From positions 1-60,101 of the forward strand of contig VXSG01000112.1 of assembly GCA_009838075.1 (NCBI GenBank): a DNA stretch of 60,101 nucleotides, read 5' to 3'. This document shows, piece after piece, positions 11,599 through 52,422 of the stretch (the stretch's first letter is position 1; the number at the start of each line of letters is the position of its first letter). Under the pieces are notes generated by a model. It was given only the letters and a program-made list of their open reading frames with translations, was not told the DNA's origin and did not search any database. The DNA is from Boseongicola sp. SB0665_bin_10 (GTDB taxonomy: Bacteria; Pseudomonadota; Alphaproteobacteria; Rhodobacterales; Rhodobacteraceae). The position numbers were made by a program, and so were the translations under genes.

Positions 11599-11608
11599 AG
11601 CCGTTCAC

Positions 11609-11634: not shown

Positions 11635-11676
11635 CCCCCATTCCATCGGCCGCCTACGATCCGGAGGATTGCCGAC

Positions 11677-12882: not shown

Positions 12883-14187
12883 ATGCGATCCGTCTCCGCG
12901 CTGCTGGCCGGATTGGCACTCTTGACATGCCCTGCACTCGCACAGGACTTCACGACGCTCAAGGGACACGGCGGCCCGGTCATGGGGCTTGCCGTTTCCG
13001 AAAGCGGGGAGGTCGCGAGCGCCAGCTTCGACAATTCTGTGGGGCGCTGGCAGAACCGCACGCCGCAATGGCTCGAGGGCCACGCCGCCGCCGTCATCGA
13101 CTTGATCTTCCTGCCCGACGGTCGCATCGCGTCGGGGGCGGATGACTTTTCCATATGGCTTTGGGACGGCACGGATGGGCGTGAACTCGGTCGCCACAAG
13201 GGAAAGGTCACCGACCTTGCAGTGTCGCATGACGGCGCGGTCCTGGCCTCGGCCAGCTGGGGCGGCACGATCGGGATCTGGCCACTTGCCGAACCGGATC
13301 CCGCGCCCACATTGATCGACCTGCGCGACACCGGCGCCAATGACGTTGCATTCTCGCCGGACGGCAGACTGCTGTATGCCGCGACCTCCAAGGGGGACAT
13401 CCGCGTCTACGACCTCTCGGCACCCGGTGACGCCCCGTTCCGGACACTGGTGCGACATGGGTTCGCGATCAACGAAATGGTGTTGTCGCCGGACGGGTCG
13501 TGGATGGCCTATGGCGCAGTCGATGGCGTGACCCGGGTGATCGACACGCAGACGGGCACCGTGCTTCGCGATTTCACCCTTGAACGACGGCCCATCCTCG
13601 CCATGGACTACCATGCTGAAACAGGGAAACTGGCCGTCAGCGACGGACATGGGTACATCTCGGTGATTTCCACCGAAACCTGGCGTATCGAACGCGACTT
13701 TCACGCGACCCGGAGAGGTCCGGTCTGGGCGCTGGCGTTCTCGCCTGACGGATCCGTGATCTGGGCCGGTGGGCTCGACAGCGTCGTCTACGGCTGGCCG
13801 GTCGAACTGCTGGACCGTTTCGAACCGTCCATGGGCGCGTCGCACAGCTTCCTGAAAAGCCCCGGATCGATGTCGAACGGCGAACGCCAGTTCATGCGCA
13901 AGTGCTCGATCTGCCACGCACTGGAGGCTGGCAACTCGCGCAAGGCGGGGCCGAACCTCAACGGCGTCTTTGGCCGTCTCGCCGGAACGGTTCCGGGGTA
14001 CCGGTATTCTGACATACTTGACGGCTCGGACATCGTCTGGGGCGAGGAAACGATCGATGCCCTTTTCGATCTCGGCCCCGACAACTATATTCCGGGCTCC
14101 AAGATGCCGATGCAGCAGATCGCTGCGCCAGAGGACCGTCGGGACCTGATAGAATTCTTGAGGGTGGCAACTGGAAACGGGGATTGA
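12883..14187 (+). CDS. exported WD40 beta-propeller fused to class I cytochrome c
   Basis: 434 residues. A Sec signal peptide (about 1-20, ending ALAQ) is followed by WD40-type repeats over about residues 25-310 (recurring LKGHGGPV, LSPDG and VWALAFSPDG patterns). A cytochrome c domain follows, with haem site CSICH at 341-345, GPNL nearby and a probable axial Met at 408 (SKMPM). The ATG follows the gamma-subunit stop with no gap, which implies tight coupling. It is probably a periplasmic electron carrier or docking subunit for the formate dehydrogenase. The coupling to FDH is from context only. Confidence 0.9.
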   Translation: MRSVSALLAGLALLTCPALAQDFTTLKGHGGPVMGLAVSESGEVASASFDNSVGRWQNRTPQWLEGHAAAVIDLIFLPDGRIASGADDFSIWLWDGTDGRELGRHKGKVTDLAVSHDGAVLASASWGGTIGIWPLAEPDPAPTLIDLRDTGANDVAFSPDGRLLYAATSKGDIRVYDLSAPGDAPFRTLVRHGFAINEMVLSPDGSWMAYGAVDGVTRVIDTQTGTVLRDFTLERRPILAMDYHAETGKLAVSDGHGYISVISTETWRIERDFHATRRGPVWALAFSPDGSVIWAGGLDSVVYGWPVELLDRFEPSMGASHSFLKSPGSMSNGERQFMRKCSICHALEAGNSRKAGPNLNGVFGRLAGTVPGYRYSDILDGSDIVWGEETIDALFDLGPDNYIPGSKMPMQQIAAPEDRRDLIEFLRVATGNGD

Positions 14188-14190
14188 AAC

Positions 14191-14325
14191 ATGAAGTCCA
14201 TGTGGGCAGGCCTTGCCGGTGTCATCGTGATCACCGTCGTGGCATACTTCGTTCTCGGGGAACTGGGTTTCTCCTCGGCGGAACGCGGATCAGGCAACGC
14301 CGTTCGGCTCGAGATGTCGAACTGA
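14191..14325 (+). CDS. 44-residue single-pass membrane peptide
   Basis: A short frame starting 3 bases after the cytochrome fusion gene. It encodes MKSMWAGLAGVIVITVVAYF and then a polar tail ending VRLEMSN. Residues ~6-24 form one clear membrane helix. The position inside the fdh transcription unit and the compact hydrophobic design suggest a small accessory subunit, like the short peptides of other membrane oxidoreductases. The upstream ribosome-binding site is weak. I recognise no family. Confidence 0.6.
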   Translation: MKSMWAGLAGVIVITVVAYFVLGELGFSSAERGSGNAVRLEMSN

Positions 14326-14337
14326 CCGGCGCTGGCC

Positions 14338-16416
14338 GTGCGGGAACGAGGGAAATCCGGTTTCGCGGCGGCGTACCATGCCCGGGTGCCGTCAATCCTG
14401 TGCCTGGCGGTTGCCGTGGCAGTCGCTGGCGTCGGCGCAGCAGGAGCCGTCTCGCCGGAAACCATGAATTCCGTGGTCTCGGTCCTGCCGCAATGGCCCG
14501 GGCGCCCGCAGGGCGGGTCCGGAGCGCCTCCGGGTGCAAGCCCCGAGGGCAGCGGCGTTGCTCTTCGCCCGGACGTCATCGCAACGGCATGGCACATCGT
14601 GGAGCGGGCCGAGCGGATTGAGGTTCGCCTTGCCGACGGGCGCATACTTCCGGCCAGCCTGATCGCCAGGGAACCCCGCAGCGACATCGCCCTCTTGCGT
14701 GTCGACACGGATCTCGCACCGTTCGACCCGGCGGCGGATCCTGCCCTTGCCGACCCGGTCTGTTCCATCGGCAATTCCTTTGGCCTCGGACTTTCCGTAG
14801 CCTGTGGCGTCGTCTCGGCCATCCAGGTGTCGAATGCCGGATTCAACGCGGTCGAGGACTTCGTCCAGACCGATGCGGCAATCAATCCTGGTGCATCCGG
14901 CGGCGCGCTCGTGGACCGGCAAGGCCGACTCGTCGGCATGGTTTCCGCAATTTTCGCGTCGAAGGGCGACACAAGCACGGGCGTCGGATTCGCCGTGTCC
15001 GCCGAGCTTCTGTGGCGTGTGACCGAAGCCCTCATCGCCGACGGCAAGGCAAGCTATCCTTCGCCGGGCTGGCGGCTCGACGTGCCCCGCCGGAACCAGT
15101 TGGCCCACCTGGCCGCGCCTGTTGTCACAGCCCTCCGGGTCGGTGGCCCTGCGGAAAGGGCGGGCGTTCGGACGGGCGATCTCGTCGCCGCCGTCGGCGA
15201 GCGGCGCACAAGGAGCCCGCGCGACGCCGTATCGGCCCTTGCCGTCCTGCCCGAAAGCGCCCGAGCCGTCGAACTGACGATCGTGCGCGGCGATGCCGAA
15301 CTGCAAGTGACCCTGCCGCTGCAATCGGGAGCAGTCATCGAACCTGGCGCCGTTTCGCCGCAGGCGAGCCATGGAGACTGCCCCCATCCCCCAACGGTCT
15401 GCATCATGCGTCAGGCCGTCTTTCCGGTATCCAGTTTCGACCCGATGGCCAGCGCTACCCGGATCGCTCCAACCTTGCTGGTCACAAATCGCCATGTGGT
15501 GGGAGACAGGATGGACGGGGTGGTGCATACACCTGACGGTCCACGCGTCGCGGAGGTCATCGCATCGGACTACCTCGGTGACCTGGTGCTGCTAAGCGTA
15601 ACTGGCCTGCCGGCGGGAGGGCACGTCCCGGCCCTTGGCGACGATGCCGTCGGACCGGCGCAACTCTACGTGGTCGGGGCCGATGTCGACCGCCGGGAAG
15701 TGCGGGTCCTTGACCCCGGAACGCTGATCGCGGGACCCGCCGAAGGTGCGGAACTCGGTCGCATCCATGTCACCGCGCGAATGCAGCCAGGCTTCAGTGG
15801 CGGCGCCCTGGTGGACGCGAACGGCAATCTCGCGGGCATTGCAGTCGGCGGGGGCGAAGGACGCTACGAGGCAATCCCGCTTGCGCAGGTCGCGAGGCTT
15901 CTCGACGGACGCAGCAGCGACGCAGCCGCTGAACTGACGGAGTGGCTTGGCCGGGCCTTCGCGAAATGCGCGGAACGGATCGACGTCGCCGAAAGCGGCG
16001 CCAAGGTCGAGCCGCAGGCCGTCGTGGACATATGCTCCACGGCGTTCAATCAGGGTCAGCTCCTCGAAGCCGGCCGCATGCTTGCCAGATCCGGGGCGTT
16101 TGACGGCGCGGCAACGCTCCACGGACAGGCCGTTCGTCAGACCCCGAACTCGATCAACGCGCGCCTGTCGCTGTTGGCATCCATGCAGCTGGCCGCGCGG
16201 TTCGAAGACATGACCGAACACGCGCAGTGGTTGATTGAAATGACCCCGGATGACCCCCGGGCACTCCGGATCGCGATCCAGTCCGGCGTGTGGGGCGATG
16301 ATCCGGAACTGGCCGAAGAGGCTTACCGGCTTCTGCTTGATGCCGACCCGCGCCAGGCCCTGGCGGCCCGCCGCTTCATCGACAGCGCCCCGCCGGCGCC
16401 TCGGCGCCGGAACTGA
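14338..16416 (+). CDS. tandem trypsin-like serine protease with PDZ domain
   Basis: 692 residues from a GTG; another GTG at 14386 would give a tighter signal peptide (MPSILCLAVAVAV...). The first chymotrypsin-fold domain has a full triad: H86 (TAWHIVE), D116 (SDIALL) and S187 (NPGASGGAL, where GNSGG is usual). A PDZ-like domain covers about 250-330. A second protease-like domain keeps TNRHVVGD, GDLVLL and GFSGGAL. The last ~150 residues are helical, TPR-like. It should be a periplasmic DegP-like protease. It ends the fdh operon and may act in quality control of the exported enzyme; substrates are unknown. Confidence 0.85.
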   Translation: MRERGKSGFAAAYHARVPSILCLAVAVAVAGVGAAGAVSPETMNSVVSVLPQWPGRPQGGSGAPPGASPEGSGVALRPDVIATAWHIVERAERIEVRLADGRILPASLIAREPRSDIALLRVDTDLAPFDPAADPALADPVCSIGNSFGLGLSVACGVVSAIQVSNAGFNAVEDFVQTDAAINPGASGGALVDRQGRLVGMVSAIFASKGDTSTGVGFAVSAELLWRVTEALIADGKASYPSPGWRLDVPRRNQLAHLAAPVVTALRVGGPAERAGVRTGDLVAAVGERRTRSPRDAVSALAVLPESARAVELTIVRGDAELQVTLPLQSGAVIEPGAVSPQASHGDCPHPPTVCIMRQAVFPVSSFDPMASATRIAPTLLVTNRHVVGDRMDGVVHTPDGPRVAEVIASDYLGDLVLLSVTGLPAGGHVPALGDDAVGPAQLYVVGADVDRREVRVLDPGTLIAGPAEGAELGRIHVTARMQPGFSGGALVDANGNLAGIAVGGGEGRYEAIPLAQVARLLDGRSSDAAAELTEWLGRAFAKCAERIDVAESGAKVEPQAVVDICSTAFNQGQLLEAGRMLARSGAFDGAATLHGQAVRQTPNSINARLSLLASMQLAARFEDMTEHAQWLIEMTPDDPRALRIAIQSGVWGDDPELAEEAYRLLLDADPRQALAARRFIDSAPPAPRRRN

Positions 16417-31194: not shown

Positions 31195-32328
31195 CTACCT
31201 GTCCTCCAGCGCAACCCAGTCGCGCGGCTCCGGTCCGTTGTACAGCGTGAGCGGACGGATCAGGATGTTGCCCCGCTTCTGCTCAAGGCACTGGATGACC
31301 CAGCCCGGCATCCGTCCGATGGCAAAGATCGGCACGTAGAGATCCATGGGGATCCCGTGGAGCTGGTAGACCACGCCGGAATAGAAATCGACGTTCACGT
31401 TCAGCCCGTGCCGCGCATAGGGCTTCATCGCCTCGACCACCGCCTGCAGGATTTCGTACCACTCCGGCTGGCCCATTTCCTCGCCCAGCTTTCTCACGCC
31501 GTCACGCATGTGCCGCGCACGCGGGTCCTCGGCACGATAGACCCTGTGGCCAAAGCCCGTCACCGGCTCCCTGTTCTTGCGCTTTTGCCGCACGTATTCG
31601 GCTGCATTTCCCGGAGCACCGATCTCCTCGACCATTTTCATGACGTCTTCTGCGGCGCCGCCATGGGCAGGCCCCGCAAGCGTGGCAAGCGCGGTCGTGA
31701 TCGCGCCATGCATGTCCGCTTCCGTGCCAACCGTCACCCTTGCCGCGAACGAGGACGCGTTGGCGCCATGTTCGGCGTGAAGGATGAAGTCCACGTCCGC
31801 CAGCCGTGCGGCGTCGTCCGAGGGCGTCTCGCCCTTGAGCATCCAGAGCCAGTTCCCGGCGTGTCCGAGCGACGGATCAGGCCTTGTCGGCTCGCGTCCG
31901 GACCGAATGGCGTGATGCGCGGCAATGATCATCGGCACCTGCGCGGTCAGGCGAATTCCGTTTTCGAGCATGCCTTCCTCGGACGCGTCCTGAGCGCCGG
32001 ATTCCAGCGCAGCCAGTGCGGAAACAGCGGTGCGCAGCACGTTCATCGGATGGCCGTCAGAGGTTGCGCGAACTATGTCGATGATCTCGTCAGGCAGGAC
32101 GCGGGCGGCCTTCAGCCCGGCGTCGAATTCCGCCAGCTCGTCTGCATTTGGCAACTCGCCCATGATCAACAGGTGAGCGACTTCCTCGAAGGTCGCGTTG
32201 GTCGCCAGATCGTCGATCGTGTATCCACGGTAGTACAGGCGGCCAGTCGCTCCATCGATGTCCGACACTGCCGAACGGTCGAAATGCACACCCATGAGGC
32301 CACGGTTGATCTTCGGTGCTTCGGTCAT
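31195..32328 (-). CDS. citrate/2-methylcitrate synthase family enzyme
   Basis: 377 residues, the short citrate synthase form. Catalytic regions are present: the active-site His in LHAEHGANAS, the second His in TGFGHRVYR, and the Asp in NVNVDFYSG. It condenses acetyl-CoA (or propionyl-CoA) with oxaloacetate. AGGAG lies 7 bases before the ATG. It diverges from pta with only 30 bp between start codons and is one step from the acetyl-CoA made by Xsc plus Pta. Whether it is the main TCA enzyme or a dedicated paralogue cannot be told here. Confidence 0.9.
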   Translation of the reverse strand: MTEAPKINRGLMGVHFDRSAVSDIDGATGRLYYRGYTIDDLATNATFEEVAHLLIMGELPNADELAEFDAGLKAARVLPDEIIDIVRATSDGHPMNVLRTAVSALAALESGAQDASEEGMLENGIRLTAQVPMIIAAHHAIRSGREPTRPDPSLGHAGNWLWMLKGETPSDDAARLADVDFILHAEHGANASSFAARVTVGTEADMHGAITTALATLAGPAHGGAAEDVMKMVEEIGAPGNAAEYVRQKRKNREPVTGFGHRVYRAEDPRARHMRDGVRKLGEEMGQPEWYEILQAVVEAMKPYARHGLNVNVDFYSGVVYQLHGIPMDLYVPIFAIGRMPGWVIQCLEQKRGNILIRPLTLYNGPEPRDWVALEDR

Positions 32329-32358
32329 GTAGCTGCTCCTGATACGGCAGGGGAATTG

Positions 32359-33234
32359 ATGATGAATGCTCTGGAAAGGTCCTTCGAAGCGGCAAAGGCA
32401 AGAAACGCGCGAGTCGTCATGCCGGAGATTCCGGAAGACGATCGCGTGCGAGATGCCGCCAATCGGCTCGTGGCTGGCGGCCTTGCCTCGATGGTGGCGC
32501 TAGCAGAACCGTCAGACGAACTGGCGGCGGCGGTCGTAGAGAACCGGGGGGTCAAGCCCGCCCTTGCGCGTCGCATGATCGGCAAGCCACTTGTTCGCGC
32601 CGCGGCAATGGTTGCGGTCGGCGAGGCGGATGTCCTCGTCGCAGGCGCGCTGGCTCCGACCCGGCGTGTGATCGAGGCCGCGTCCCTTGCGATCGGACTT
32701 GCCGACGGGATCAGGCAGCCTTCATCCTTCTTTCTCATGTCCCTCCCGGGAGGGAGCGAATTGATATTCGCGGACTGTGCCGTCTCCGTGGAACCGGACG
32801 CAGGCGATCTCGCAGGAATCGCGCGCAGTTCCGCCGCCTCGGCGGAAGCGCTTCTGGGCGATGCGAGGGTGGCGTTTCTCTCGTTTGCCACTGGCACCAG
32901 CGGCACAGGCCCCTCGGTCGAGAAGGTCACCGTGGCGACGGGGGCGGCGCAAGCCGCAGGCGTGAACGCGATCGGTCCGGTGCAGGCTGACACCGCCCTG
33001 AATCCGGAAATTGCCAGGCGCAAGGGATCGGGCGCCGGAGATGCCAACGTCCTGGTGTTCCCCTCCCTTGACGCCGGCAACATCGGGTACAAGCTCGTGC
33101 AGGAACTGGCCGGGGCACAGGCCATCGGGCCAGTCTTGCAAGGCTTTCGCAAGCCGGTCTGCGACTTGAGCCGAGGCGCGAGCGTGGATGACATCGTTGC
33201 CGCCACCGTCATCTCGATCGCACTCGCAGCCTGA
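32359..33234 (+). CDS. pta: phosphate acetyltransferase
   Basis: 291 residues, the PTA_PTB domain alone. The start is one of two adjacent ATGs (32359 or 32362) behind AGGGGA. Upstream sequence in the same frame is antisense to citrate synthase and is not part of the gene. The enzyme turns acetyl phosphate into acetyl-CoA. Conserved blocks include FATGTSGTGPSVEKV and GDANVLVFPSLDAGN. It converges with xsc, whose product is acetyl phosphate, so the two very likely form one pathway even though they lie on opposite strands. Confidence 0.92.
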   Translation: MMNALERSFEAAKARNARVVMPEIPEDDRVRDAANRLVAGGLASMVALAEPSDELAAAVVENRGVKPALARRMIGKPLVRAAAMVAVGEADVLVAGALAPTRRVIEAASLAIGLADGIRQPSSFFLMSLPGGSELIFADCAVSVEPDAGDLAGIARSSAASAEALLGDARVAFLSFATGTSGTGPSVEKVTVATGAAQAAGVNAIGPVQADTALNPEIARRKGSGAGDANVLVFPSLDAGNIGYKLVQELAGAQAIGPVLQGFRKPVCDLSRGASVDDIVAATVISIALAA

Positions 33235-33424
33235 CCGGAAACCCTGCTTGAAGGCGCCGGGCTGCGACGCCAAGGTGCGTGGGCACCGCCGTCCGCTGGC
33301 CCGTGCCCCGCATCAACAGGATGGACATTGCCTGCAATGGCTCCTCCCCGGCCCATTGCCATGAAAGCGCAACGCTGCCGATGCGCGCGCGGAACGACGC
33401 GCAGCATGGCCTGGCCGCCGGCGC

Positions 33425-38665: not shown

Positions 38666-39631
38666 ATGCAAACAAAGATTCGTGCGCTCGCATTGGGCGC
38701 GTTTATGTCAGTTGCGGGATCGGCCGCTTTGGCGGCAACCGAGTGCATCGCACCCGCCAACCCCGGCGGCGGCTGGGACTTCACCTGTCGCCAGATCGGC
38801 AAGATCCTGTACGACATCGGCCAGGTGGACTCACCGGTTCAGGTCACCAACATGGCCGGCGGCGGCGGAGGCCTGGCCTACAGCCACGTGGTCAATGAAC
38901 GCGGCGACGACAACAACCTGATCGTCGCCGCCAGCCAGGCCACGGCAACGCGCCTTGCACAGAACGCCTATGCCGGCATGACCGCCGACCAGGTGCGGTT
39001 CGTGGGCGCGATCGGTGCCGATCCCGGCGTGATCGTCGTGGCCGCCGACAGCCCGTTCATGTCGCTCGGCGACATGGTCGACGCGATCAAGTCCGATCCC
39101 GGCTCGGTCGCCTTCGGCGGCGGCTCGGCGGCGGGCGGGTTCGACCACCTGAAGGTGCTCATGGTCCTGAAGGAGGCCGGTTTCACCGACATCACCAAGG
39201 TCAAGTACATCGGACTTGACGGCGGTGGCGACGCGATCACCCAGACGATCGGCGGCTTCACTCAAGGCATGACCGGCGACATGTCCGAAATCGTCGGCTT
39301 CCTCCAGTCGGGCGAGGTGCGCGCGCTTGCCGTCCTCACCGAGGAGCGGGTGCCGGGCTTCGAGGACATCCCGACGGCCGTGGAGCAGGGCTTTGACGTG
39401 GTCGCCGTGAACTGGCGCGGCCTCTACGTGCCAAAGGGTATCTCGGACGCCGACTTCGAGGCATGGGGCGCCAGGCTCCAGGCCGTGGCGGACAGCCAGG
39501 AATGGAAGGACGCCATGGTCGCCAACGGTCTCGCCCCCTTCACCAAGGTCGGCGGCGACTTCCAGAGCTGGGTAGACGGCGTCATTGCCGATACGGTCGA
39601 ACTCTCGAAAGAGATCGGCGTAATCCAGTGA
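38666..39631 (+). CDS. tctC: tripartite tricarboxylate transporter binding protein TctC
   Basis: 321 residues from the ATG preceded by AAGGGAGAAAGAC. The signal peptide covers about residues 1-23 (ending ALAA). The mature protein has the TctC/Bug signature, with the ligand-binding start ECIAPANPGGGWD and the later GGGSAAGGFDH loop. It is a periplasmic binding protein that feeds carboxylate-type ligands to the TctAB membrane complex. Its stop overlaps the TctB start (GTGA). Confidence 0.93.
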   Translation: MQTKIRALALGAFMSVAGSAALAATECIAPANPGGGWDFTCRQIGKILYDIGQVDSPVQVTNMAGGGGGLAYSHVVNERGDDNNLIVAASQATATRLAQNAYAGMTADQVRFVGAIGADPGVIVVAADSPFMSLGDMVDAIKSDPGSVAFGGGSAAGGFDHLKVLMVLKEAGFTDITKVKYIGLDGGGDAITQTIGGFTQGMTGDMSEIVGFLQSGEVRALAVLTEERVPGFEDIPTAVEQGFDVVAVNWRGLYVPKGISDADFEAWGARLQAVADSQEWKDAMVANGLAPFTKVGGDFQSWVDGVIADTVELSKEIGVIQ

Positions 39632-40071
39632 AACTCTCCGACCGGCTCTTCGGAGTGGTCGTGATACTGGGGGCGCTCGCCTATACGGCGGGCGCCTTCC
39701 AGATACAGGCCAGCTTCATGTCGGACCCTGTCGGGTCGAAGACATTCCCGCTGATCCTTGCGGGAGTCGCGACGATCTGCGGGCTGGTCTTTCTCTTCCG
39801 GCCCGATGACGACCCGAAGTGGCCTGGCCGATTGACGCTTGGCAACATCGTGATCGCCGTCCTCGTCATGGTTGCCTACGCCCATGCCCTGAAGCCGCTC
39901 GGCTTCCTGATGCCCACGGCGGTCTGCGCGGCCATCCTGAGCTTCCAGATCTCCCCTCGTCCGCTGCCTGCGGCAATCACCGGTCTTGGCCTGTCGATCG
40001 GGCTGTTCCTGATATTCAAGTACGCGCTCGGCCTCGGGCTTCAGCCCGTGCCCAAGGCGTGGCTGGGCTGA
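39628..40071 (+). CDS. tctB: tripartite tricarboxylate transporter small subunit TctB
   Basis: 147 residues from a GTG that overlaps the TctC stop. Four hydrophobic helices are visible, as expected for TctB. It forms the small membrane subunit with TctA, whose ATG overlaps this stop by one base (TGATG). Confidence 0.9.
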   Translation: MKLSDRLFGVVVILGALAYTAGAFQIQASFMSDPVGSKTFPLILAGVATICGLVFLFRPDDDPKWPGRLTLGNIVIAVLVMVAYAHALKPLGFLMPTAVCAAILSFQISPRPLPAAITGLGLSIGLFLIFKYALGLGLQPVPKAWLG

Positions 40072-41615
40072 TGGAACTCCTCTCGAACCTCGCCCTCGGC
40101 TTCAGCGTCGCGCTTACGCCGTTCACGCTCTTTCTCGCCGTTGCGGGGTGTTTTCTGGGTACCATTATCGGCGCGCTTCCGGGCCTCGGCCCGTCGAACG
40201 GCGTCGCCATCCTGATCCCGCTTGCATTCTCGCTCGGCCTCGATGCGACATCCGCCCTCGTCCTGATGACGGCCGTCTATTACGGCGCGATGTATGGCGG
40301 GCGGATCAGTTCCATCCTTCTCAACATCCCCGGCGACGAGCCTGCGCTGATGACGACGCTTGACGGCTACCCGATGGCGAAGGCGGGTCGTGCCGGAGAC
40401 GCTCTCGTGCTGTCCGGCTTTGCAAGCTTCTTCGGCGCGCTTTTTGCAACCATCGGCCTGATGCTGCTTGCGCCGCTGCTGTCCCGCATTGCGTACCAGT
40501 TCGGTCCGTCGGAGTATTTCGCGCTATACCTGCTGGCGTTCTCCACCTTGGGAGGCATCGCCTCCAAGAACCAGGCCAAGGCCGCCCTCGCCTCCTGCAT
40601 GGGGCTTGGCATCGCCATGATCGGGCTGGACAACCAGACCGGGATGCCACGCTTCACCGGCGGCAACCTGCACCTTATGGACGGTGTCGATTTCCTGGTC
40701 GCGATTGTCGGGCTGTTTGCGGTCGCGGAGGTCTTTGTCTTCATCGAGAGTCATGGCAGGGAGTCTTCCATCGGCGTCAGGCTCGGAAAGGTGACCCTGC
40801 CGGTCCGCGACCTGGCCAAGGGCATCGGCACCATGCTGCGCTCCAGCGTGATCGGGTTCATCGCCGGCGTGCTTCCCGGCGCCGGCGCCTCGCTCGGTTC
40901 GTTCCTGGCCTACATGGGCGAGAAGAACGTGCAGGGCGAAAGGGGCGGTTTCGGCACCGGCGTGCCCAAGGGCGTGATGGCGCCCGAGGCGGGGAACAAC
41001 GCCGCAGCCGGCGGCGCGCTCGTGCCGATGCTGACGCTCGGCGTGCCCGGTTCCGGAACGACCGCCGTGCTGCTGGCGCTGCTGCTGACGCTCAACATCA
41101 CGCCGGGACCGACCCTGTTCACCGACCGGCCGGACGTCGTGTGGGGCCTGATCGCCTCGCTGCTGATCGCGAACTTCGTCCTTCTGGCGATGAACGTGCC
41201 AATGGTGAAAATCTTCGTCCACATCCTGAGCGTGCCGGCATGGGTTCTGCTTCCGGGCGTCATGATGATCTCCTTTGTCGGCATCTATTCGCTCTCGGGC
41301 AGCTATTTCGATCTCCTGCTGATGATCTTCTTCGGCATCGTCGGCTGGATTTTCCGCAAGCTGGACGTTCCGACAGTGCCCATCATCCTTGGCATCCTTC
41401 TCGGCAATCACATGGAGGACGCGCTGCGTCGCGCAATGATACTATCCGACGGCGACTGGCGGTTCCTGTTCGGGTTCCGGTGGCATGGGCCGTCGGACGG
41501 GTACGAATTCTACTCCGCGATTCCCTCGTCGCTTCTTGTCCTTGCCGTTGCAGGATTCGTGGCGCCGATCTTCCTCCGCCGCGTGATCAAGAGACCCCAG
41601 GCAGTCAGTGACTGA
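40071..41615 (+). CDS. tctA: tripartite tricarboxylate transporter large subunit TctA
   Basis: 514 residues, about 11-12 membrane helices. Family motifs include GALPGLGPSNGVAIL near the N-terminus, YGGRISSILLNIPGD, and GNNAAAGGALVPMLTLGVPG in the middle. It is the sodium- or proton-driven carboxylate channel of the system. The downstream gene begins after 189 bp with no terminator seen, so transcription probably continues into the catabolic genes. Confidence 0.94.
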   Translation: MELLSNLALGFSVALTPFTLFLAVAGCFLGTIIGALPGLGPSNGVAILIPLAFSLGLDATSALVLMTAVYYGAMYGGRISSILLNIPGDEPALMTTLDGYPMAKAGRAGDALVLSGFASFFGALFATIGLMLLAPLLSRIAYQFGPSEYFALYLLAFSTLGGIASKNQAKAALASCMGLGIAMIGLDNQTGMPRFTGGNLHLMDGVDFLVAIVGLFAVAEVFVFIESHGRESSIGVRLGKVTLPVRDLAKGIGTMLRSSVIGFIAGVLPGAGASLGSFLAYMGEKNVQGERGGFGTGVPKGVMAPEAGNNAAAGGALVPMLTLGVPGSGTTAVLLALLLTLNITPGPTLFTDRPDVVWGLIASLLIANFVLLAMNVPMVKIFVHILSVPAWVLLPGVMMISFVGIYSLSGSYFDLLLMIFFGIVGWIFRKLDVPTVPIILGILLGNHMEDALRRAMILSDGDWRFLFGFRWHGPSDGYEFYSAIPSSLLVLAVAGFVAPIFLRRVIKRPQAVSD

Positions 41616-41804
41616 CCGCGGCCAGGAACGCACGGCCCTGCCGGTGCGCGGCGATGCAAGAGCACGAAATGTCATGCGGCATCGAGACCTCTCTCGCACC
41701 GGACCAGTTCCCCGGTGGCAATCTCCTTCTGTTTGCGGACCGTACACGTCCCGGCGGATGCAGGGCACTCGTGAACAAGCGCCGACAAGCCGGCGAACCG
41801 AACC

Positions 41805-43157
41805 ATGACGCGCATTCTCGTTCCCTCCGGCGCGCTCGGCCTCGATTACGACGAGGCAGCGCTCGAACGCGGCATCCGGATGAATCCGGATCTCATCGCC
41901 ATCGACGGCGGGTCGACCGACAGCGGGCCGTCCTATCTCGGCAACGGCGTGTCGAAATACGCACGGAGCTCGACCAAGGTGGAGTGGAAGGGGCTGATCG
42001 AGGCGGCGCGGAACGCAGGATGCCCTCTCGTCATCGGAACCGCGGGCACCTGTGGGACCGACGGGATGGTCGACTGGCTCGTCGACATCACGCGCGAATG
42101 CCTGGACGAGCTCGGCTGGACGCCAAGGGTCGCGACGCTCAAGTCCGAGCAGGTTCCGAACGAAGTCGGCCAGCGCTTCGCCTCGGGCCAGGTCTCGGCC
42201 CTGGACGGCGCGCCAGACCTGGATCGCAAGACCATCGAGGACTGCACGCACATCGTTGCCTTGGCGGGCGCCGAGCAGATCCAGCAGGCCATCGAGACCG
42301 CGGCGGAGATCATCATCGCGGGCCGGACGACCGACACGGCCACCATAGCGGCGCTTCCGCTCATGCGGGGCGACCACGCCGGCGGCGCATGGCACGGGGC
42401 CAAGATCGCGGAATGCGGCGCCCTCTGCGCCACGAATCCCCAGTCCGGCGTCCTGATGGTCGAGTTCGACAAGGTCGGTTTCACCGTGCACCCCCTGGCG
42501 GACGATGCCCGCGCAACGCCGCAAACCGTCCTCGCGCACATGCTGTACGAGAATTCGGATCCGTTCATCCTTCACGAGCCGGGCGGGCATCTCGACGTGA
42601 CCGACGCCACCTACGAGGCGCTCGACGAGGTGCGCGTCCGCGTGGAAGGATCCCGCTGGGTTGCGTCGGACCAGTACACCGTGAAGCTGGAAGGCGCGCG
42701 CGTGGCCGGCTGCCAGACTCTCTTGATGGCCACCATCCGCGACCCGCGATACGTAAGAAACGCGCAAGCCTGGATTCGGGACATCGGTCACCGGCACGCC
42801 GCCAAGGTCGAGAACCGGACGGGCCTCGCACCGGAAGCCTGGCGCTGCGACCTCCGGCTAGTCGGCATCGACAGCACGCTTGGAGAGATGGAGACCAGGC
42901 CGGGCGCGCCGACCGAGATCGGGGTCCTTTGCACCATAACCGCCGAGGACCAGGGCACCGCGAACGAGATCGGCAAGCTCATGAATCCCTACCTTCTGCA
43001 CCACCCGCTGACATCCGAGGAAGAGCAGCCGACCTTCTCGTTTCCGTTTTCGCCGGCCGAGATCGACAGGGGGCCGGTCCATGAGTTCTGCCTCCATCAT
43101 GTCATGACGCTGTCAGACCCGATGGACGCGTTCCGCCTTGACGTGATCAATGCCTGA
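41805..43157 (+). CDS. AtuA / DUF1446 family protein
   Basis: 450 residues, recognised as the AtuA-type (DUF1446) family: an early IDGGSTDSGPSYLG block, GTAGTCGTDG, and IIAGRTTDTATIAALPLMRG. The reaction is not established; AtuA is needed for acyclic terpene use in Pseudomonas. It is soluble. Its end overlaps the DUF4387 gene by 8 bp; the two families normally occur together and probably form one enzyme. Here it lies between a carboxylate importer and CoA activation genes. Confidence 0.9.
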   Translation: MTRILVPSGALGLDYDEAALERGIRMNPDLIAIDGGSTDSGPSYLGNGVSKYARSSTKVEWKGLIEAARNAGCPLVIGTAGTCGTDGMVDWLVDITRECLDELGWTPRVATLKSEQVPNEVGQRFASGQVSALDGAPDLDRKTIEDCTHIVALAGAEQIQQAIETAAEIIIAGRTTDTATIAALPLMRGDHAGGAWHGAKIAECGALCATNPQSGVLMVEFDKVGFTVHPLADDARATPQTVLAHMLYENSDPFILHEPGGHLDVTDATYEALDEVRVRVEGSRWVASDQYTVKLEGARVAGCQTLLMATIRDPRYVRNAQAWIRDIGHRHAAKVENRTGLAPEAWRCDLRLVGIDSTLGEMETRPGAPTEIGVLCTITAEDQGTANEIGKLMNPYLLHHPLTSEEEQPTFSFPFSPAEIDRGPVHEFCLHHVMTLSDPMDAFRLDVINA

Positions 43158-43452
43158 AGTGGGCGAGGTCTGCGACAAGGTCCGGTCGAAGAACGCCGGA
43201 CCCTTCTGGCTGACGATCGACATCTTTTGCGGAACCGACGACGCTTTTGCCCGTCTGTCAGGCGGTCTCACGACGAAACGCGTCGCGGAAGCCCTCGGCA
43301 CGGATCCGACGGCGATCAGGCGGTTCGACATCAAGGACCTGAACGTGATCAAGATCAGCCTCCCTCGCCCTGTCGTGCAAGGCCATCCCGGGGACAGGGA
43401 CATGCACGGTGCGGCATGGGCTTCCGTCGTCGCGGAGCTCGTGGTCGACTGA
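43150..43452 (+). CDS. DUF4387 domain protein
   Basis: A 100-residue protein covering the whole DUF4387 domain, with conserved AGPFWLTIDIFC near residue 16 and a late HGAAWA. It is the standard companion of DUF1446/AtuA, here overlapping it by 8 bp. It may be a small subunit. No reaction is known. Confidence 0.88.
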   Translation: MPEVGEVCDKVRSKNAGPFWLTIDIFCGTDDAFARLSGGLTTKRVAEALGTDPTAIRRFDIKDLNVIKISLPRPVVQGHPGDRDMHGAAWASVVAELVVD

Positions 43453-43455
43453 ACG

Positions 43456-44649
43456 ATGGTCGCACCGCTCTCGGACATTCTCGTGCTGGACCTGACCAAC
43501 GTGCTGGCGGGCCCGTTCTGCTGTCACCAGCTGGCCCATCTCGGTGCGGAGGTGATCAAGATCGAGCAGCCCGGACGCGGCGATCTTGCGCGGCGACTGG
43601 GTGCGGATGCCCGGCTCAATGCCGCGGGGATGGGCGCCTCGTTCCTTGCCCAGAACGCGGGCAAGAAGTCCGTGACGCTGAATCTCAAGCATGCCAAGGG
43701 AAAGCCGCTTTTCAAGCGGCTGGTGGCAAAGGCGGACGTCCTGGTCGAGAATTTCCGCCCAGGGGTCATGGAGCGACTTGGCTTGAGCCATGATGTCCTG
43801 AAAGGGATCAATGCAGAACTGACATATTGCGCGATCTCCGGTTTCGGCCAGGACGGGCCCTGGGTTGACCGTCCCGCATATGACCAGATCATCCAGGGCG
43901 CGTCGGGTGTCATGTCGATCACGGGAACCGCGGTGAGCGCCCCGACGCGCGTTGGCTACCCAGTGGCGGACACGGTCGGTGGCCTGACCGCGGCCTTCGC
44001 GATCACGGCGGCGCTGAACAAGCGGCCACGCGGCGCGTTCATCGATGTCTCGATGCTGGAATCCGTCCTGGCGACCATGGGATGGGTGGTGTCGAACCAC
44101 CTGATTGCGGGAGTCATCCCGGAAGCGCATGGCAACGAAAACCCGACATCGGCGCCGTCCGGAACCTTCAGCACGGCCACCGATCCGATCAATGTCGCGG
44201 CGAACAGCGACGATCAGTGGGTGCTGCTGACGGACCATCTTGGCCTGGCCCGCCTGCGGAACCGCACCGAATACGCCACGCGCGAGGATCGGAAGAGGAA
44301 CCGGCACAGGCTTCGCGCGGAGATCGAGGACGTGCTCGTGACAAGGCCCGCCAGGGACTGGGTCGAGGAACTGAACCGGATCGGGGTCCCGGCGGGGGCC
44401 GTGCTGACCGTGCCGGAAGTGCTCCGCTCGGAACAGATCGCCGGTCGTGGATTCCTGGCCGGTTTCGAGAACGCCCCAGGCGTCGGACGCGACATCGAGG
44501 TTGCGCGAACAGGCGTCAAGCTTGATCGGAAGGCAGCTGCCGTCGACAGCCCGCCGCCGGAACTTGGGCAGCACAATCGTGAAATCTGGGGCCGAGTCGG
44601 AATTTCCGGTTCCGAGCTTGAGCGCCTCGAAAGGGATGGGGTCATATGA
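43456..44649 (+). CDS. family III (CaiB/BaiF) CoA-transferase
   Basis: 397 residues. The N-terminal block LDLTNVLAGPFCCHQLAHLGAEVIK and the FRPGVMERLGL and GFGQDGPWV segments are typical of family III. The usual catalytic Asp falls near residue 155 (YDQIIQGASG context). It moves CoA between carboxylic acids, here presumably onto the acid imported by TctCBA. It starts 3 bp after DUF4387 and its stop overlaps the citryl-CoA lyase start by 4 bp. Confidence 0.92.
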   Translation: MVAPLSDILVLDLTNVLAGPFCCHQLAHLGAEVIKIEQPGRGDLARRLGADARLNAAGMGASFLAQNAGKKSVTLNLKHAKGKPLFKRLVAKADVLVENFRPGVMERLGLSHDVLKGINAELTYCAISGFGQDGPWVDRPAYDQIIQGASGVMSITGTAVSAPTRVGYPVADTVGGLTAAFAITAALNKRPRGAFIDVSMLESVLATMGWVVSNHLIAGVIPEAHGNENPTSAPSGTFSTATDPINVAANSDDQWVLLTDHLGLARLRNRTEYATREDRKRNRHRLRAEIEDVLVTRPARDWVEELNRIGVPAGAVLTVPEVLRSEQIAGRGFLAGFENAPGVGRDIEVARTGVKLDRKAAAVDSPPPELGQHNREIWGRVGISGSELERLERDGVI

Positions 44650-45452
44650 GCGGCAACGACGTCTCCGACTGGTGGTCAACAGCGATAATCGACATGGAGC
44701 CGGGCCGGATCCATTTGCGGGGCCATCCGATCGAGGAACTGATCGGAAAGCTCACGCTGCCGGAAACGATCTGGCTGATGACCAGGGGCGAGACGCCCGA
44801 GGAAGGCCAGGCCCGGCTTCTCGAAGCTGCACTGGTCGCCGCGGTGGATCACGGGCCGCAGGCGCCGTCGATCGCAGCTGCACGCATGGCCGTGACATGC
44901 GGACTGCCGCTGAACAACGCAATGGCTTCCGCGGTCAACATGCTCGGTGACGTGCATGGTGGCGCAGGGGAGCAGGCGGTCGAGTTCCTTGATGGCATTG
45001 CCAGGACGGCCAGTTCCGGAACCGGGCTGGCACAAGCCGCTTCGGAAGGGATCGACAACTGGCAGCATGCCCGCAACGCATTCGTGCCGGGCTTCGGCCA
45101 CAGGTTCCACACGCCCTCCGACCCGCGCGCGCCGCGCCTCCTCTCGCTCGTGGACAGTGCGGCCGAAAGCGGCGTCGTGACGGGGCAGTACGCCCATGCC
45201 GGACGCGCGGTCGAGGACGAGTTGCACAGGCGGAAAGGCAAGCCCGTGCCGATGAACATCGACGGAGCGACGGCCGTCATCTTTGCCGAACTCGGCTTTG
45301 CACCACCGCTGGCACGCGGACTCTTCTGTCTCTCGCGCTCTGTCGGCATCCTCGCGCACGCGTGGGAACAGATGCAGCAGGGCGGGCGCAACAAGGGTCC
45401 GACACCTCCCGAATACCGATGGAGCTACACCGGCCCGCGCCCGAACACGTGA
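44646..45452 (+). CDS. citryl-CoA lyase (citrate synthase fold)
   Basis: 268 residues, much shorter than citrate synthase but with its C-terminal active-site pattern: GDVHGGAGEQ, FVPGFGHRFH, and a late Asp in NIDGATAV. It matches the stand-alone citryl-CoA lyase family, which splits citryl-CoA to acetyl-CoA and oxaloacetate. Coupled by a 4-bp overlap to the CoA-transferase, it gives an activate-then-cleave pair. The true substrate may be a citrate analogue. Confidence 0.88.
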   Translation: MSGNDVSDWWSTAIIDMEPGRIHLRGHPIEELIGKLTLPETIWLMTRGETPEEGQARLLEAALVAAVDHGPQAPSIAAARMAVTCGLPLNNAMASAVNMLGDVHGGAGEQAVEFLDGIARTASSGTGLAQAASEGIDNWQHARNAFVPGFGHRFHTPSDPRAPRLLSLVDSAAESGVVTGQYAHAGRAVEDELHRRKGKPVPMNIDGATAVIFAELGFAPPLARGLFCLSRSVGILAHAWEQMQQGGRNKGPTPPEYRWSYTGPRPNT

Positions 45453-49298: not shown

Positions 49299-50171
49299 AT
49301 GGATGCAGTCTTGAGCGACAGCGGACACATTTCGCAGGTGGAAACGCCATCGGGCAAGAACGCCGAATACGAGAACTTTCCCGTCGGCTCGATATTGCTT
49401 CCTGCCCGAACGCGACCTCACGTCGCCACGTTCTACGCGTTTGCCCGTGCCATCGACGACATCGCGGATTCGCCGGATCTCACGGCTGGGGAAAAGACGG
49501 CGCGACTGGAAGGGTTTGGACGTGAGCTTCGGCTCGCCGAAGGGCGGGCTGGCTACGAAAAGGCCACGCGAATGGCCGCAAGCCTTGCCGAGACGGGCGT
49601 CAGCGACATCCATTGCCGCAATCTCGTCCGCTACTGCCTGCAAGACGCGACAAAGAACCGCTACGCGTCGTGGCAGGAAGTGATCGACTACTGCATGCTC
49701 TCCGCTGCACCGGTCGGGCGGTACCTGATCGATCTTCATGGCGGGTCAAGCGCAGGCTACGGAAGTTCGGACGCGTTGTGCAACGCGCTTCAGGTCATCA
49801 ATCACCTGCAGGATTTCGGCGACGACTACAGGACCCTGGACCGCATCTATCTGCCCGCGGACTGGATGGCGGAGTCTGGCGTCAACGTTGAGGAACTCGG
49901 CAAGGACCGCACATCCGAGCGGCTTCGCGTCGTCATCGACAAGTGCCTGACCGAAATCGAGGCACTCATGAAGGATGCGCGCCAACTGCCTGGTCACGTC
50001 AACCACCGTCGCCTGAAACTCGAAGCCGCCGTCATCGTGCGTTTGGCTGACCGGCTGGCCTGGCAACTCTCTCGAAAGGACCCCTTGGCGGCACGGGTCA
50101 AGCTGACAAGGCCGGAAGCCGTCATTTGCACGATGCGAGGGCTGGCCGGGGGCCTCGTCCTGTCGCGATGA
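49299..50171 (+). CDS. hpnC: squalene synthase component HpnC (hydroxysqualene synthase)
   Basis: 290 residues of the squalene/phytoene synthase fold. The first Asp-rich motif is AIDDIADSPD and the second NHLQDFGDDYRTLD. In the three-step HpnCDE route HpnC turns presqualene diphosphate into hydroxysqualene. It converges with hpnE-hpnD instead of heading one operon with them. The ATG has only a weak ribosome-binding site. Confidence 0.92.
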   Translation: MDAVLSDSGHISQVETPSGKNAEYENFPVGSILLPARTRPHVATFYAFARAIDDIADSPDLTAGEKTARLEGFGRELRLAEGRAGYEKATRMAASLAETGVSDIHCRNLVRYCLQDATKNRYASWQEVIDYCMLSAAPVGRYLIDLHGGSSAGYGSSDALCNALQVINHLQDFGDDYRTLDRIYLPADWMAESGVNVEELGKDRTSERLRVVIDKCLTEIEALMKDARQLPGHVNHRRLKLEAAVIVRLADRLAWQLSRKDPLAARVKLTRPEAVICTMRGLAGGLVLSR

Positions 50172-50238: not shown

Positions 50239-51549
50239 TCAGGTCGCAGCATGCTCGCTACCCGGATTCTCCATGAGTGCCTGACCCATGCTCCCGGCAG
50301 CCAGTTCGGCCGCCAGCCTGCCGGAACGCACCGCGCCCTCGATCGTTGCCGGCAGGCCGGTATCCGTCCAGTCTCCGGCAAGGAAGACACCCGGTGGACC
50401 TGCGACGGATCCGGGCCGTCGCGCGACCTGTTCCGGTGTCTGGGCAATGGTCGCCATCCGCTCGACGACGACACGGTGCGGCGGCACCATTCCCGCGTCG
50501 CCTTCCAGTTCCAGTGACCGTCGGACGTCGTCCCAGATCGCACCCACCTTGCTTCGCCCGTCGACGTCGCCCCGGCAGGCGCTGACGGTCGCCGAGACAA
50601 TGCCGTCCCGCCAGAACAGCCACTCCGCCGTGCCGCCGAGGAGCCCGAGGAACGGCGGGTCCTCCGGCTTCCACGAGACGATTCCTGGCGTCCGGAAATG
50701 CACATTGACGATGCCGCGGTGCTCGTTCGGGACGCGCAGGCCCGGAACCAGCTCTTCGGCGACACGGGCGGGCACGGCCAGGATCACCCGGTCATCCGGT
50801 CCAACCTGGACCTCGTCATCCCTGAAACACAAGGCCGTGACACGGCCTGACTTGTTCAACGTGATCGAACGAAGCCGCATGCGAAAGCGCAGCTCGGCAC
50901 CACTTCCCGCCAGAAAGGCCACCGCCGGGTCCGCGAAGGCACCGCTCAGGCCATGCCTCGCCGTCAGGGGACGGCATGCACGACCCCCTCGGCCAATGGT
51001 TTCACGCAGAACCGGCTTCATGAGCACCGCCGCGGCATGCTCGGGTTCGGTGTTGAGAACCGCGATCGATACCGGTTTCCAGAATCGCTCGTGCAACTGG
51101 CCGCAAGGCGACAGGACTTCGCTGATCGACGATCCCGGACCGGCATTCAACAGGCGGAGCGACTTTGCATAGTCCGCCAGTCGCGCACCCGGAACCCGTC
51201 CGTCGCGGGAAAACGGTCTTCCGGGGATGCGGCCATCGCCCAGGTCAACCGTCCAGCGTTCACCTGTGGCGAGATCAAGGAACGGAAATCGGGCGCTGAT
51301 CGGACCGGACAGCCTGTCCCGTGCGCCAATCAGGGCCAGGAACCGCTGAATCGAGGTGTTGCCGGAGAGCATCAGGTGGCTTCCGTTGTCGATCATCGCC
51401 CCGAGGCTCTCGTCGTGGAACGAACGGCAGCGTCCGCCGGCAAGGCCGGTCGCTTCGTGAACGGCCACGCGGACACCGCTCGCGGACAACTCGCACGCCG
51501 CGCTCAGGCCGGCAACGCCTGCGCCAACCACATGGGCGATTCCAGGCAC
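50239..51549 (-). CDS. hpnE: hydroxysqualene dehydroxylase HpnE
   Basis: 436 residues, FAD-dependent amine-oxidase/phytoene-desaturase fold. The N-terminal dinucleotide motif is VVGAGVAGLSAA, and the C-terminal FAD block contains GVFLAGDWTDTGLPATIEGA. It reduces hydroxysqualene to squalene, the hopanoid precursor. It begins with GTG directly after the hpnD stop (TAG-GTG), so translation is coupled. Confidence 0.92.
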   Translation of the reverse strand: MPGIAHVVGAGVAGLSAACELSASGVRVAVHEATGLAGGRCRSFHDESLGAMIDNGSHLMLSGNTSIQRFLALIGARDRLSGPISARFPFLDLATGERWTVDLGDGRIPGRPFSRDGRVPGARLADYAKSLRLLNAGPGSSISEVLSPCGQLHERFWKPVSIAVLNTEPEHAAAVLMKPVLRETIGRGGRACRPLTARHGLSGAFADPAVAFLAGSGAELRFRMRLRSITLNKSGRVTALCFRDDEVQVGPDDRVILAVPARVAEELVPGLRVPNEHRGIVNVHFRTPGIVSWKPEDPPFLGLLGGTAEWLFWRDGIVSATVSACRGDVDGRSKVGAIWDDVRRSLELEGDAGMVPPHRVVVERMATIAQTPEQVARRPGSVAGPPGVFLAGDWTDTGLPATIEGAVRSGRLAAELAAGSMGQALMENPGSEHAAT

Positions 51550-52422
51550 CTAGAACAGGCCGTGGCGCAGGGCCAGGCAGGCCTTTCGGAACGAGCCGAC
51601 GGAAATCCGCTCGGACGGAAACGGCGAGAACCCCGCTCCGACGATCCGTTCCAGGAGCTTTCCGTACACCGCGCGCATCATCCTGGCGGGCCGAATGTCC
51701 TGAGGTCGGCAAGCGCTCATGATCTTGTCCGCAGCCGCGAAGTGGTCCCGGGCATGCGCCGACAGCCCCTGGCAGACAATGGCCGCTGCAGGCTGGTCGG
51801 CAAGCGTGTCGGCGCGCGGGTGTTCAAGCCCTGCCTCACGAAGAGCGGATGCGGGAAGGTAGATCCGGTTGCGTCGGGCGTCTTCACGGACGTCACGCAG
51901 GATATTGGTCAACTGAAGCGCCGAACCGAGTGAAGCCGCCAATTGCCTGCCGGTCTCGGGATCGAGGCCGAATACCCGACAGGACATCCGCCCGACCGAA
52001 CAGGCCACGCGGTCAACATATGTCGCCAGGGCCGCCTCATCGGGAATGCGTACGGACGGCGCCGCGTCCGTCATCATTCCGTCAATCACGCAATTCAGGT
52101 CGGATTCCGCAATTTCGTAATCGAAAGCCGGCCTGGCAAGTGCCCTCACCGTCGCCCGTGCCGGCGCCTCGCCCCGATAGAGCCGCTCCACGTCGCGCCG
52201 GTAGCCGTTAAGCGCCTCCTGCTTGCGAAACGTCTCGCCGGGCTCATCCGCTATGTCGTCGACCTCCCGGCAAAACGCGTAGATCGCATACATCGCGTCG
52301 CGCTTCGCGGGCAGCATGCGTCGCATCGCCCAGAAAAACGCGGAACCCGAATTCGCGACCAGCGTCTCCGCATAACGTTTCGCCGCAAGCTCGCCTGACC
52401 GTTGCACGTTCGCAAATTGCAT
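51550..52422 (-). CDS. hpnD: presqualene diphosphate synthase HpnD
   Basis: 290 residues, squalene/phytoene synthase family. Asp-rich motifs are REVDDIADEPGE and TNILRDVREDARRNR. It condenses two farnesyl diphosphates to presqualene diphosphate. It is the first gene of the leftward hpnD-hpnE pair. No squalene-hopene cyclase (shc) gene is in the window, so the hopanoid end of the pathway must lie elsewhere if present. Confidence 0.92.
   Translation of the reverse strand: MQFANVQRSGELAAKRYAETLVANSGSAFFWAMRRMLPAKRDAMYAIYAFCREVDDIADEPGETFRKQEALNGYRRDVERLYRGEAPARATVRALARPAFDYEIAESDLNCVIDGMMTDAAPSVRIPDEAALATYVDRVACSVGRMSCRVFGLDPETGRQLAASLGSALQLTNILRDVREDARRNRIYLPASALREAGLEHPRADTLADQPAAAIVCQGLSAHARDHFAAADKIMSACRPQDIRPARMMRAVYGKLLERIVGAGFSPFPSERISVGSFRKACLALRHGLF

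Follow-up and report, generated by a model that had tools for sequence, protein, structure and literature searches.

The window analysed here, a stretch of 60,101 nucleotides, is contig VXSG01000112.1 of Boseongicola sp. SB0665_bin_10 (Rhodobacteraceae; assembly GCA_009838075.1), and the system under study is a seven-gene operon on its + strand, at positions 38666-45452. The operon joins the genes of a tripartite tricarboxylate transporter with an AtuA/DUF4387 pair and with the genes of a family III coenzyme A (CoA) transferase and a citryl-CoA lyase, in the order tctC-tctB-tctA-atuA-duf4387-CoA-transferase-citryl-CoA lyase (Table 1). tctC and tctB overlap by 4 bp and tctB and tctA by 1 bp; 189 bp separate tctA from atuA; atuA and duf4387 overlap by 8 bp, 3 bp lie between duf4387 and the CoA-transferase gene, and the latter overlaps the lyase gene by 4 bp. 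All seven proteins exceed their Pfam cut-offs, and since TctC, TctB and TctA are all present the transporter set is complete. An earlier reading, made by a model from the sequence only, had described seven genes running in one direction in this order, with every junction except one an overlap or a 3-bp gap; coordinates, strand and Pfam matches agree with the description, and its account of the junctions is exact, the exception being the 189-bp gap.

The seven-gene operon is real, and it is more than a chance arrangement because its order is kept in 4/4 congeners examined, where all seven genes are present at about 89.5-98% identity (L022-L025). In three further congeners atuA is confined to fragments at contig ends, and these stand outside this count. 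The atuA of the window is 93-94% identical to that of metagenome-assembled genomes titled Boseongicola sp. and Silicimonas sp. (L043, L044), and a PF07287 search of the window's own genome, a draft of 4.8 Mb in which the window is contig C68, gave one AtuA. Promoter-like and terminator-like sites between 38050 and 46400 showed no excess over chance.

Table 1. Features of the operon, with positions in the window
Feature	Position	Strand	Description
tctC	38666-39631	+	periplasmic binding protein of the tripartite tricarboxylate transporter; PF03401, 76.7 bits
tctB	39628-40071	+	small membrane subunit, GTG start; PF07331, 64.3 bits
tctA	40071-41615	+	large membrane subunit, 'type A'; PF01970, 487.7 bits
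tctA/atuA intergenic gap	41616-41804	+	189 bp; retained with small length changes in four congeners (alignment of 5 species)
atuA (DUF1446)	41805-43157	+	putative large subunit of a citramalate-lyase-type C-C lyase; PF07287, 69.4 bits, cut-off 22.8
duf4387	43150-43452	+	putative small subunit of the AtuA-type lyase; PF14330, 80.5 bits, cut-off 27
family III CoA-transferase	43456-44649	+	PF02515 (CoA_transf_3), 368.7 bits
citryl-CoA lyase	44646-45452	+	short citrate-synthase-fold type; Citrate_synt, 124.5 bits; NF004864, 441.6 bits, cut-off 261

The AtuA/DUF4387 pair as a candidate C-C lyase

Both proteins of the pair lead to the same solved relative. In phmmer searches of the PDB, the sole relevant match of AtuA is 9erq_A ('Citramalate lyase, subunit A (cmlA)', E 1.1e-74) and that of DUF4387 is 9erq_B ('subunit B (cmlB)', E 1e-10). 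An AlphaFold model of AtuA, built from 62 aligned orthologues (predicted local distance difference test, pLDDT, 90.9), matches 9evf_A ('Citramalate lyase - ADP - pyruvate complex', released 2025-10-08) with E 1.6e-47, template modelling (TM) scores of 0.90/0.89 and 34% identity; it is the only PDB structure matched below E 0.001, the next one having E 8.7e-3 and TM 0.12. This fold comparison covers the large subunit, DUF4387 being assigned by sequence alone. Fourteen polar residues of AtuA (D34, S37, D39, R174, D177, K200, E203, C204, H245, Y248, E249, K294, E296 and E371) were followed in an alignment of 101 rows, composed of 89 close rows, in which duplicates were left, 10 distant ones and the homologues of E. 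coli and Prevotella; they are kept in at least 95% of the close rows and are identical in 10/10 distant rows and in the two homologues, which come from methylaspartate clusters. DUF4387 adjoins atuA in 80/80 named loci. The pair thus resembles CmlA/CmlB (9erq, 9evf) in its two-subunit make-up, in the fold of the large subunit and in these polar residues, but the identity is low and in the operon the pair is surrounded by TctCBA, CoA-transferase and citryl-CoA lyase.

The CmlAB-type homologues of E. coli and Prevotella differ in their setting, which is that of glutamate mutase/methylaspartate clusters. In E. coli Sakai (L042) the neighbours of the pair include glutamate mutase, methylaspartate ammonia-lyase and a fumarase, and the match between its large subunit and the solved CmlA chain is full-length (967.8 bits); in Prevotella nigrescens it comes after methylaspartate ammonia-lyase, with fumarase-type genes shortly behind. 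The two E. coli genes (L042, 36934-38618, - strand) bear the annotations 'acyl-CoA synthetase' and '3-methylaspartate ammonia-lyase' and are assigned by Pfam to DUF4387 and AtuA; that the large subunit matches CmlA gives these annotations no support. A 2015 publication terms the fate of citramalate in the E. coli methylaspartate cluster unclear and remarks a DUF1446 gene there.

Two other members of the family have been discussed in the literature. A 2025 review, referring to unpublished data, describes the AtuA-like ThnQS as a lyase for ring opening at a tertiary carbon that carries a hydroxyl group, and a further source tentatively gives AtuA the role of acetate lyase in the breakdown of linalool. 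ThnQS (anaerobic naphthalene degradation) and AtuA (terpene utilisation) are alike, by description only, in a proposed or reported C-C cut at a tertiary hydroxylated carbon, but their substrates are CoA-bound ring or terpene intermediates. A limited literature collection searched for CmlAB, DUF1446 and DUF4387 gave no description of CmlAB, and in the same collection no statement of coupling of citramalate lyase to adenosine triphosphate (ATP) was found.

On these sequence and model comparisons the AtuA/DUF4387 pair is most likely a C-C lyase, possibly ATP-linked, and the adenosine diphosphate (ADP) of 9evf suggests, by analogy, that the reaction is coupled to ATP. We infer from the same homologies that it may be a general lyase for tertiary-alcohol acids. 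The sequence-only reading had let the pair rearrange or hydrate the acid before CoA transfer, a proposal displaced by CmlAB as the nearest solved relative: a role as hydratase or isomerase was rejected because both subunits are homologous to CmlA/CmlB and the large one matches its fold. Nor would the operon be the first biochemical setting of the pair, as had been supposed, since the family already has the CmlAB structure and the settings of ThnQS and of AtuA in linalool breakdown. Cleavage without ATP, also proposed there, may hold for the CoA branch but is doubtful for the pair, whose relative was crystallised with ADP. Acetate kinase and phosphotransacetylase were rejected as regular partners because so few loci carry either: at E 1e-12 a kinase homologue was found at four of the loci compared (L178, L197, L140 and L091, L140 being in the same genome as L197) and a transacetylase near L178 only.

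The CoA-transferase and the citryl-CoA lyase

The last protein of the operon passes the NCBIfam citryl-CoA lyase equivalog NF004864 and matches in the PDB 6hxp_A (E 4.4e-38), which we take to be, as to organism and pathway, the citryl-CoA lyase of the reductive tricarboxylic acid (TCA) cycle. Its residues H104, H152, D206, R161, R231 and H69 align to H265, H306, D363, R315, R388 and H230 of GltA and are conserved in 95% or more of the 59 sequences compared; these positions presumably have the roles of the citrate-synthase His/His/Asp and of the substrate (oxaloacetate-binding) Arg residues. The third substrate Arg of GltA, R408, which comes from the partner subunit, aligns to G251 of the lyase, with conserved R248 and K250 close by. 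As far as alignment can tell, the conserved His/His/Asp and two Arg positions fit an oxaloacetate-type product. In the CoA-transferase, Asp143 of the YDQ motif, which we assume to be the catalytic residue, is present in 44/44 aligned relatives. The seven NCBIfam matches of the enzyme are all far under cut-off, and no known substrate class (succinate-glutarate, mesaconate, oxalate and others) is reached.

The lyase is of the same short citrate-synthase-fold kind as that of the reductive TCA citryl-CoA synthetase/lyase system, but here the acid would be activated by a family III CoA-transferase encoded beside an importer and not by an ATP-dependent citryl-CoA synthetase. With CitDEF the CoA branch would share the net reaction from acid to acetate and 2-oxoacid if acetyl-CoA is the CoA donor; the lyase here, however, belongs to the citrate synthase family, and among the operon's seven genes, the only ones looked at, there is no CitDEF-type acyl carrier protein subunit and no HpcH-type lyase. 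The same seven genes include neither the itaconyl-CoA hydratase nor the HpcH-type citramalyl-CoA lyase of Ict-Ich-Ccl, presumably the gene set of the itaconate/citramalyl-CoA route. A search of the limited literature collection for a link between citryl-CoA lyase and a tricarboxylate transporter returned only an unrelated mention.

Two modules and their distribution in the Rhodobacteraceae

Outside the window's genus the order mostly splits in two: TctCBA with AtuA/DUF4387, and CoA-transferase with citryl-CoA lyase, the latter often behind another TctCBA. Culturable relatives with the first, five-gene module include Litoreibacter (L080, L084) and Roseobacter insulae (L064). The family sample comprised 295 genomes of 294 genera. 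At ten loci of other genera with an AtuA 59-67% identical to that of the window (L026-L035), atuA and duf4387 are together in 10/10 and a full or nearly full tctC-tctB-tctA lies ahead of atuA in nine, the tenth (L034) being cut by its contig; neither CoA-transferase nor lyase occurs in any of the ten fetched stretches. At six more distant atuA loci (L036-L041, 28-39% identity) no TctCBA of the window kind was seen.

The same picture emerges from the 80 named atuA loci, 63 of which have at least 5 kb on each side. A TctA of the window's type (type A, see below) is directly upstream in 65, another or cut TctA is near in 11 and none in 4. A CoA-transferase of 50% identity or more and a lyase of 55% or more lie together within 8.5 kb in 6/80, two further loci have a weak CoA-transferase match only, and the two genes together were not found within reach at 74. 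Seen from the transporter, atuA is within 300 bp in 62/70 places of type A tctA among the 295 genomes; among the eight exceptions are a split atuA (G020), a contig-end cut (G189), an atuA 2.5 kb off (G199) and two places with no atuA found nearby (G240, G235).

The lyase occupies 70 places in 65/295 genomes, and the count of its neighbours covers 48, leaving out 22 (the window and G002 among them). CoA-transferase is adjacent in 36 of the 48 (33 at at least 55% identity), a second TctA type, type B, stands alongside in 24, atuA is near in 6, and 11 lack both a CoA-transferase and a TctA of type A or B. At 24 of these loci the lyase has CoA-transferase and type B TctA with it, and 22 of the 24 have no atuA within 9 kb; Ruegeria sp. 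THAF33 is a named and annotated example of the CoA-transferase/lyase module. The CoA-transferase/lyase pair is also found by a TRAP transporter (L160) and by a DASS symporter (Methylobacterium nodulans), so that with TctCBA it accompanies at least three importer kinds, and on plasmids of Azoarcus and Azospirillum it lies amid other catabolic genes. The 11 lone lyases (L172, L202, L205, L207, L213, L214, L216, L217, L220, L221 and L222) form, with the lyase of L101/L156, a separate branch of 13 rows in the lyase tree.

Because 74 of the 80 atuA loci are without both genes in reach, the pair is hardly a preparatory step for the CoA-transferase and lyase. The scheme of the sequence-only reading, in which the pair hydrates or isomerises the acid and CoA transfer and cleavage follow, has only the gene order in its favour and is very improbable, given the C-C lyase homology and fold, these 74 loci and the 22 type B modules with no atuA within 9 kb. 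Other parts of that reading fared better: import by TctCBA is supported by context, as is the tie of CoA-transferase and citryl-CoA lyase to carboxylate import, through the 24 type B modules. Its seven-gene order is complete in the four congeners but elsewhere mostly resolves into two separate modules; likewise, of the co-occurrence it called for, that of the pair with TctCBA recurs (65/80 with the same TctA type upstream), whereas the lyase accompanies the pair in a minority only.

At the level of whole genomes the two lyase systems are independent. With presence cut-offs of E 1e-120 for atuA (79 genomes) and E 1e-40 for the lyase (65 genomes), both are in 18/295 genomes against 17.4 expected (p 0.87); a genome-level link was consequently rejected, and the link is one of position only. 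Both lie within 10 kb in 8 of the 18 genomes, two of the eight being the window and its congener. The lyase is downstream of atuA on the same strand in the window's genus, upstream on the same strand in G207, G218 and G286, convergent in G244 and divergent in G223 and G170; in G227, lyase and type A tctCBA are at a contig end. In the lyase tree the window's genus is one clade (support 99/100), and apart from it stand the upstream-linked group (91/91) and a group that includes G223 and G170 (93/94), in a joining order that the tree does not settle; the lyase of G244 is on the separate branch of the lone lyases. This suggests that the two modules were joined more than once, firmly so for G244 only.

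The two systems might also work one after the other on a larger acid, so that a C2 unit is taken off by the first before the second comes into play. Their tight stacking in the genus, and their proximity in 8/18 genomes with both, would favour such an order, but each system mostly occurs alone at the cut-offs used (61/79 atuA genomes are without lyase and 47/65 lyase genomes without atuA), so neither seems to need the product of the other, and we regard action in series as improbable.

Transporter types, substrate and proposed route

The TctA proteins of the family were sorted at a cut-off of E 1e-190 into type A (73-100% identity to the window), type B (83-100% to its own query) and type C (65-70% to the window), A and B being about 41% identical. 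Type A orthologues occur in 70/295 genomes. A lyase lies within 5 kb of type B in 28/76 places, and neither lyase nor atuA is found at any of eight type C loci examined, one of them cut just after tctA. At least one type is present in 179/295 genomes, and 171 of these have exactly one. By statistics that ignore phylogeny, A and B co-occur in 5 genomes against 18.0 expected (p 1.7e-5), B and C in 0 against 10.6 (p 3.1e-6) and A and C in 3 against 9.7 (p 0.0055). The lyase tracks type B (47 genomes, 16.7 expected).

Many loci of all three types have beside them a divergent response regulator, a sensor kinase and a binding protein; the regulator is found at 46/80 named atuA loci, 8/8 type C loci and 18/20 further type B loci, and one representative kinase has a 2CSK_N domain. 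The operon belongs to the same transporter family as the TctCBA systems with a TctDE-type two-component regulator and as SPO0184-0186 of Ruegeria pomeroyi, but differs from them in that this trio was not found beside it in the window's genus and in the divergence of its type A TctA from type B. Near-exclusion and shared regulation suggest that the TctA types are interchangeable systems for one kind of acid. Types B and C are often without catabolic genes alongside (18 of 20 type B loci chosen as lyase-free are also without CoA-transferase), which fits an acid usable by the TCA cycle or core metabolism.

The identity of this acid can be approached through type B. In Ruegeria pomeroyi, a tctABC (SPO0184-0186) mutant is reported to have lost citrate growth and drawdown, and SPO0192 is flgE. 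In a scan with E. coli flagellar proteins as queries, G038 was the only locus with tctCBA by flagellar genes; it is of type B, and its genes run tctA, tctB, tctC, regulator, kinase, binding protein, motB-like gene (our own reading) and flgE. SPO0190 is a choline oxidoreductase that G038 does not have at the matching place, and the G038 order fits the R. pomeroyi locus tags if this gene is added. On this synteny and counting of locus tags, type B is probably the citrate transporter represented by SPO0184-0186. A first flagellar search, over 20 stretches around type C loci, gave no match. TctC of the window has an N terminus that looks, by eye, like a signal peptide, and its closest solved relative is 25hk_A (E 7e-35); in the listed PDB matches a citrate-type ligand is named for no solved TctC relative.

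We propose that the acid taken up by means of the operon is a tertiary-hydroxy acid, most likely citrate or a near relative such as citramalate, and that two independent systems encoded side by side split it into a 2-oxoacid and a C2 unit, a reading to which we give about even chances. It starts from the gene content, order, homology, fold match, recurrence and near-exclusion of TctA types described above, and supposes the substrate, the direction of reaction, the ATP dependence and a single substrate for both lyases. TctCBA, judging from its family, would take up the acid. The AtuA/DUF4387 heteromer, by homology to the solved enzyme, would cut the free acid without CoA between the carbinol carbon and the CH2-COO arm, probably coupled to ATP and perhaps via a nucleotide-activated carboxylate, to give oxaloacetate (or pyruvate) and acetate or activated acetate. 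In the parallel route the family III CoA-transferase would shift CoA from acetyl-CoA or another acyl-CoA to the acid, and citryl-CoA lyase would release acetyl-CoA and the same 2-oxoacid from the thioester; if acetyl-CoA is the donor, this route would need no ATP. The two would be alternative cassettes, mostly separate behind related TctCBA in other Rhodobacteraceae and stacked in the window's genus, where, as a speculation, they may suit different energy or CoA states. In a narrower version, which we hold to be less likely than not, type A AtuA/DUF4387 would be a citrate lyase driven by ATP and independent of CoA. Citrate taken up by TctCBA would then meet any of three interchangeable fates (aconitase only, AtuA/DUF4387, or CoA-transferase with citryl-CoA lyase), two of which the window's genus would run from one operon.

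Several points weigh against the proposal. The solved relative CmlAB carries citramalate in its name, not citrate, and the ADP of the 9evf crystal could be a ligand without catalytic meaning. Distant AtuA relatives occur without TctCBA, as at the six loci L036-L041 and on a Klebsiella plasmid, so the AtuA family is not tied to citrate. The near-exclusion figures ignore phylogeny and type C depends on the E 1e-190 cut, the R. pomeroyi link is not a sequence match and needs SPO0190 as an extra gene, and atuA shows no genome-level association with the lyase. Lastly, another contig of the window's genome (G000:C65) encodes a type B TctCBA with no lyase; this transporter would be superfluous if citrate also came in through type A, so that type A may import another acid, e.g. 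citramalate.

The operon could accordingly serve citramalate, imported by TctCBA and cleaved by AtuA/DUF4387 as a true CmlAB, with the CoA pair as a CoA-linked route for citramalate or its other isomer. The nearest solved relative of both subunits is a citramalate lyase, a likely citrate transporter is present separately in the genome, and methylaspartate-mesaconate clusters hold homologous pairs. We still judge a dedicated citramalate system rather unlikely: the identity to the solved subunit is just 34%, type A-specific residues such as Lys51, Thr176 and Thr178 lie beside the conserved motifs, the lyase retains both Arg positions expected for an oxaloacetate product, and type A TctA is seldom in the same genome as the likely citrate type.

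As far as our searches show, two unrelated lyase systems behind related TctCBA transporters, stacked in one genus, are new; the AtuA/DUF4387 family itself is known already and is represented by the solved citramalate lyase. The operon hints at a further bacterial way to use citrate or a close relative. If the proposal is true, relatives that split imported citrate, and do not pass it through aconitase, would gain its carbon as oxaloacetate plus a C2 unit. On general biochemical grounds this entry would bypass an iron-sulfur enzyme and avoid CO2 loss. The obscure 'acyclic terpene utilization AtuA/DUF4387' pair would then gain a general role in cleaving tertiary-alcohol acids, and under the narrower version a further kind of citrate-cleaving enzyme, used by many Rhodobacteraceae, would stand beside citrate lyase, ATP-citrate lyase and citryl-CoA synthetase/lyase. 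In a study of a marine bloom, citrate is proposed among the most available substrates for Ruegeria pomeroyi, whose TctABC was the most expressed transporter.

Some further observations concern related genes. The type B TctCBA of the window's own genome, without lyase, lies in 1258-8832 of L248 (contig C65), and the genome holds yet another TctA-family gene. On the Klebsiella plasmid (L173, 6977-15036) genes for aldehyde and alcohol dehydrogenases and one with the annotation fumarate hydratase come after AtuA/DUF4387, and tblastn found AtuA on 12 Klebsiella plasmid records. In the window, a full-length citrate-synthase-family gene (31195-32328, - strand; PF00285, 392 bits) lies several kb upstream of the operon, and the adjoining open reading frame 32325-33407 (- strand) has no Pfam match at E 1e-5. 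The region 8057-16416 (+ strand) encodes a molybdopterin oxidoreductase with an Fe4S4 domain, a cytochrome b561-type membrane protein, a WD40-repeat protein with a C-terminal cytochrome c domain and a trypsin/PDZ protease. Between 49299 and 52422, two squalene/phytoene-synthase genes (49299-50171, + strand; 51550-52422, - strand) flank an amine-oxidase-type gene (50239-51549, - strand).

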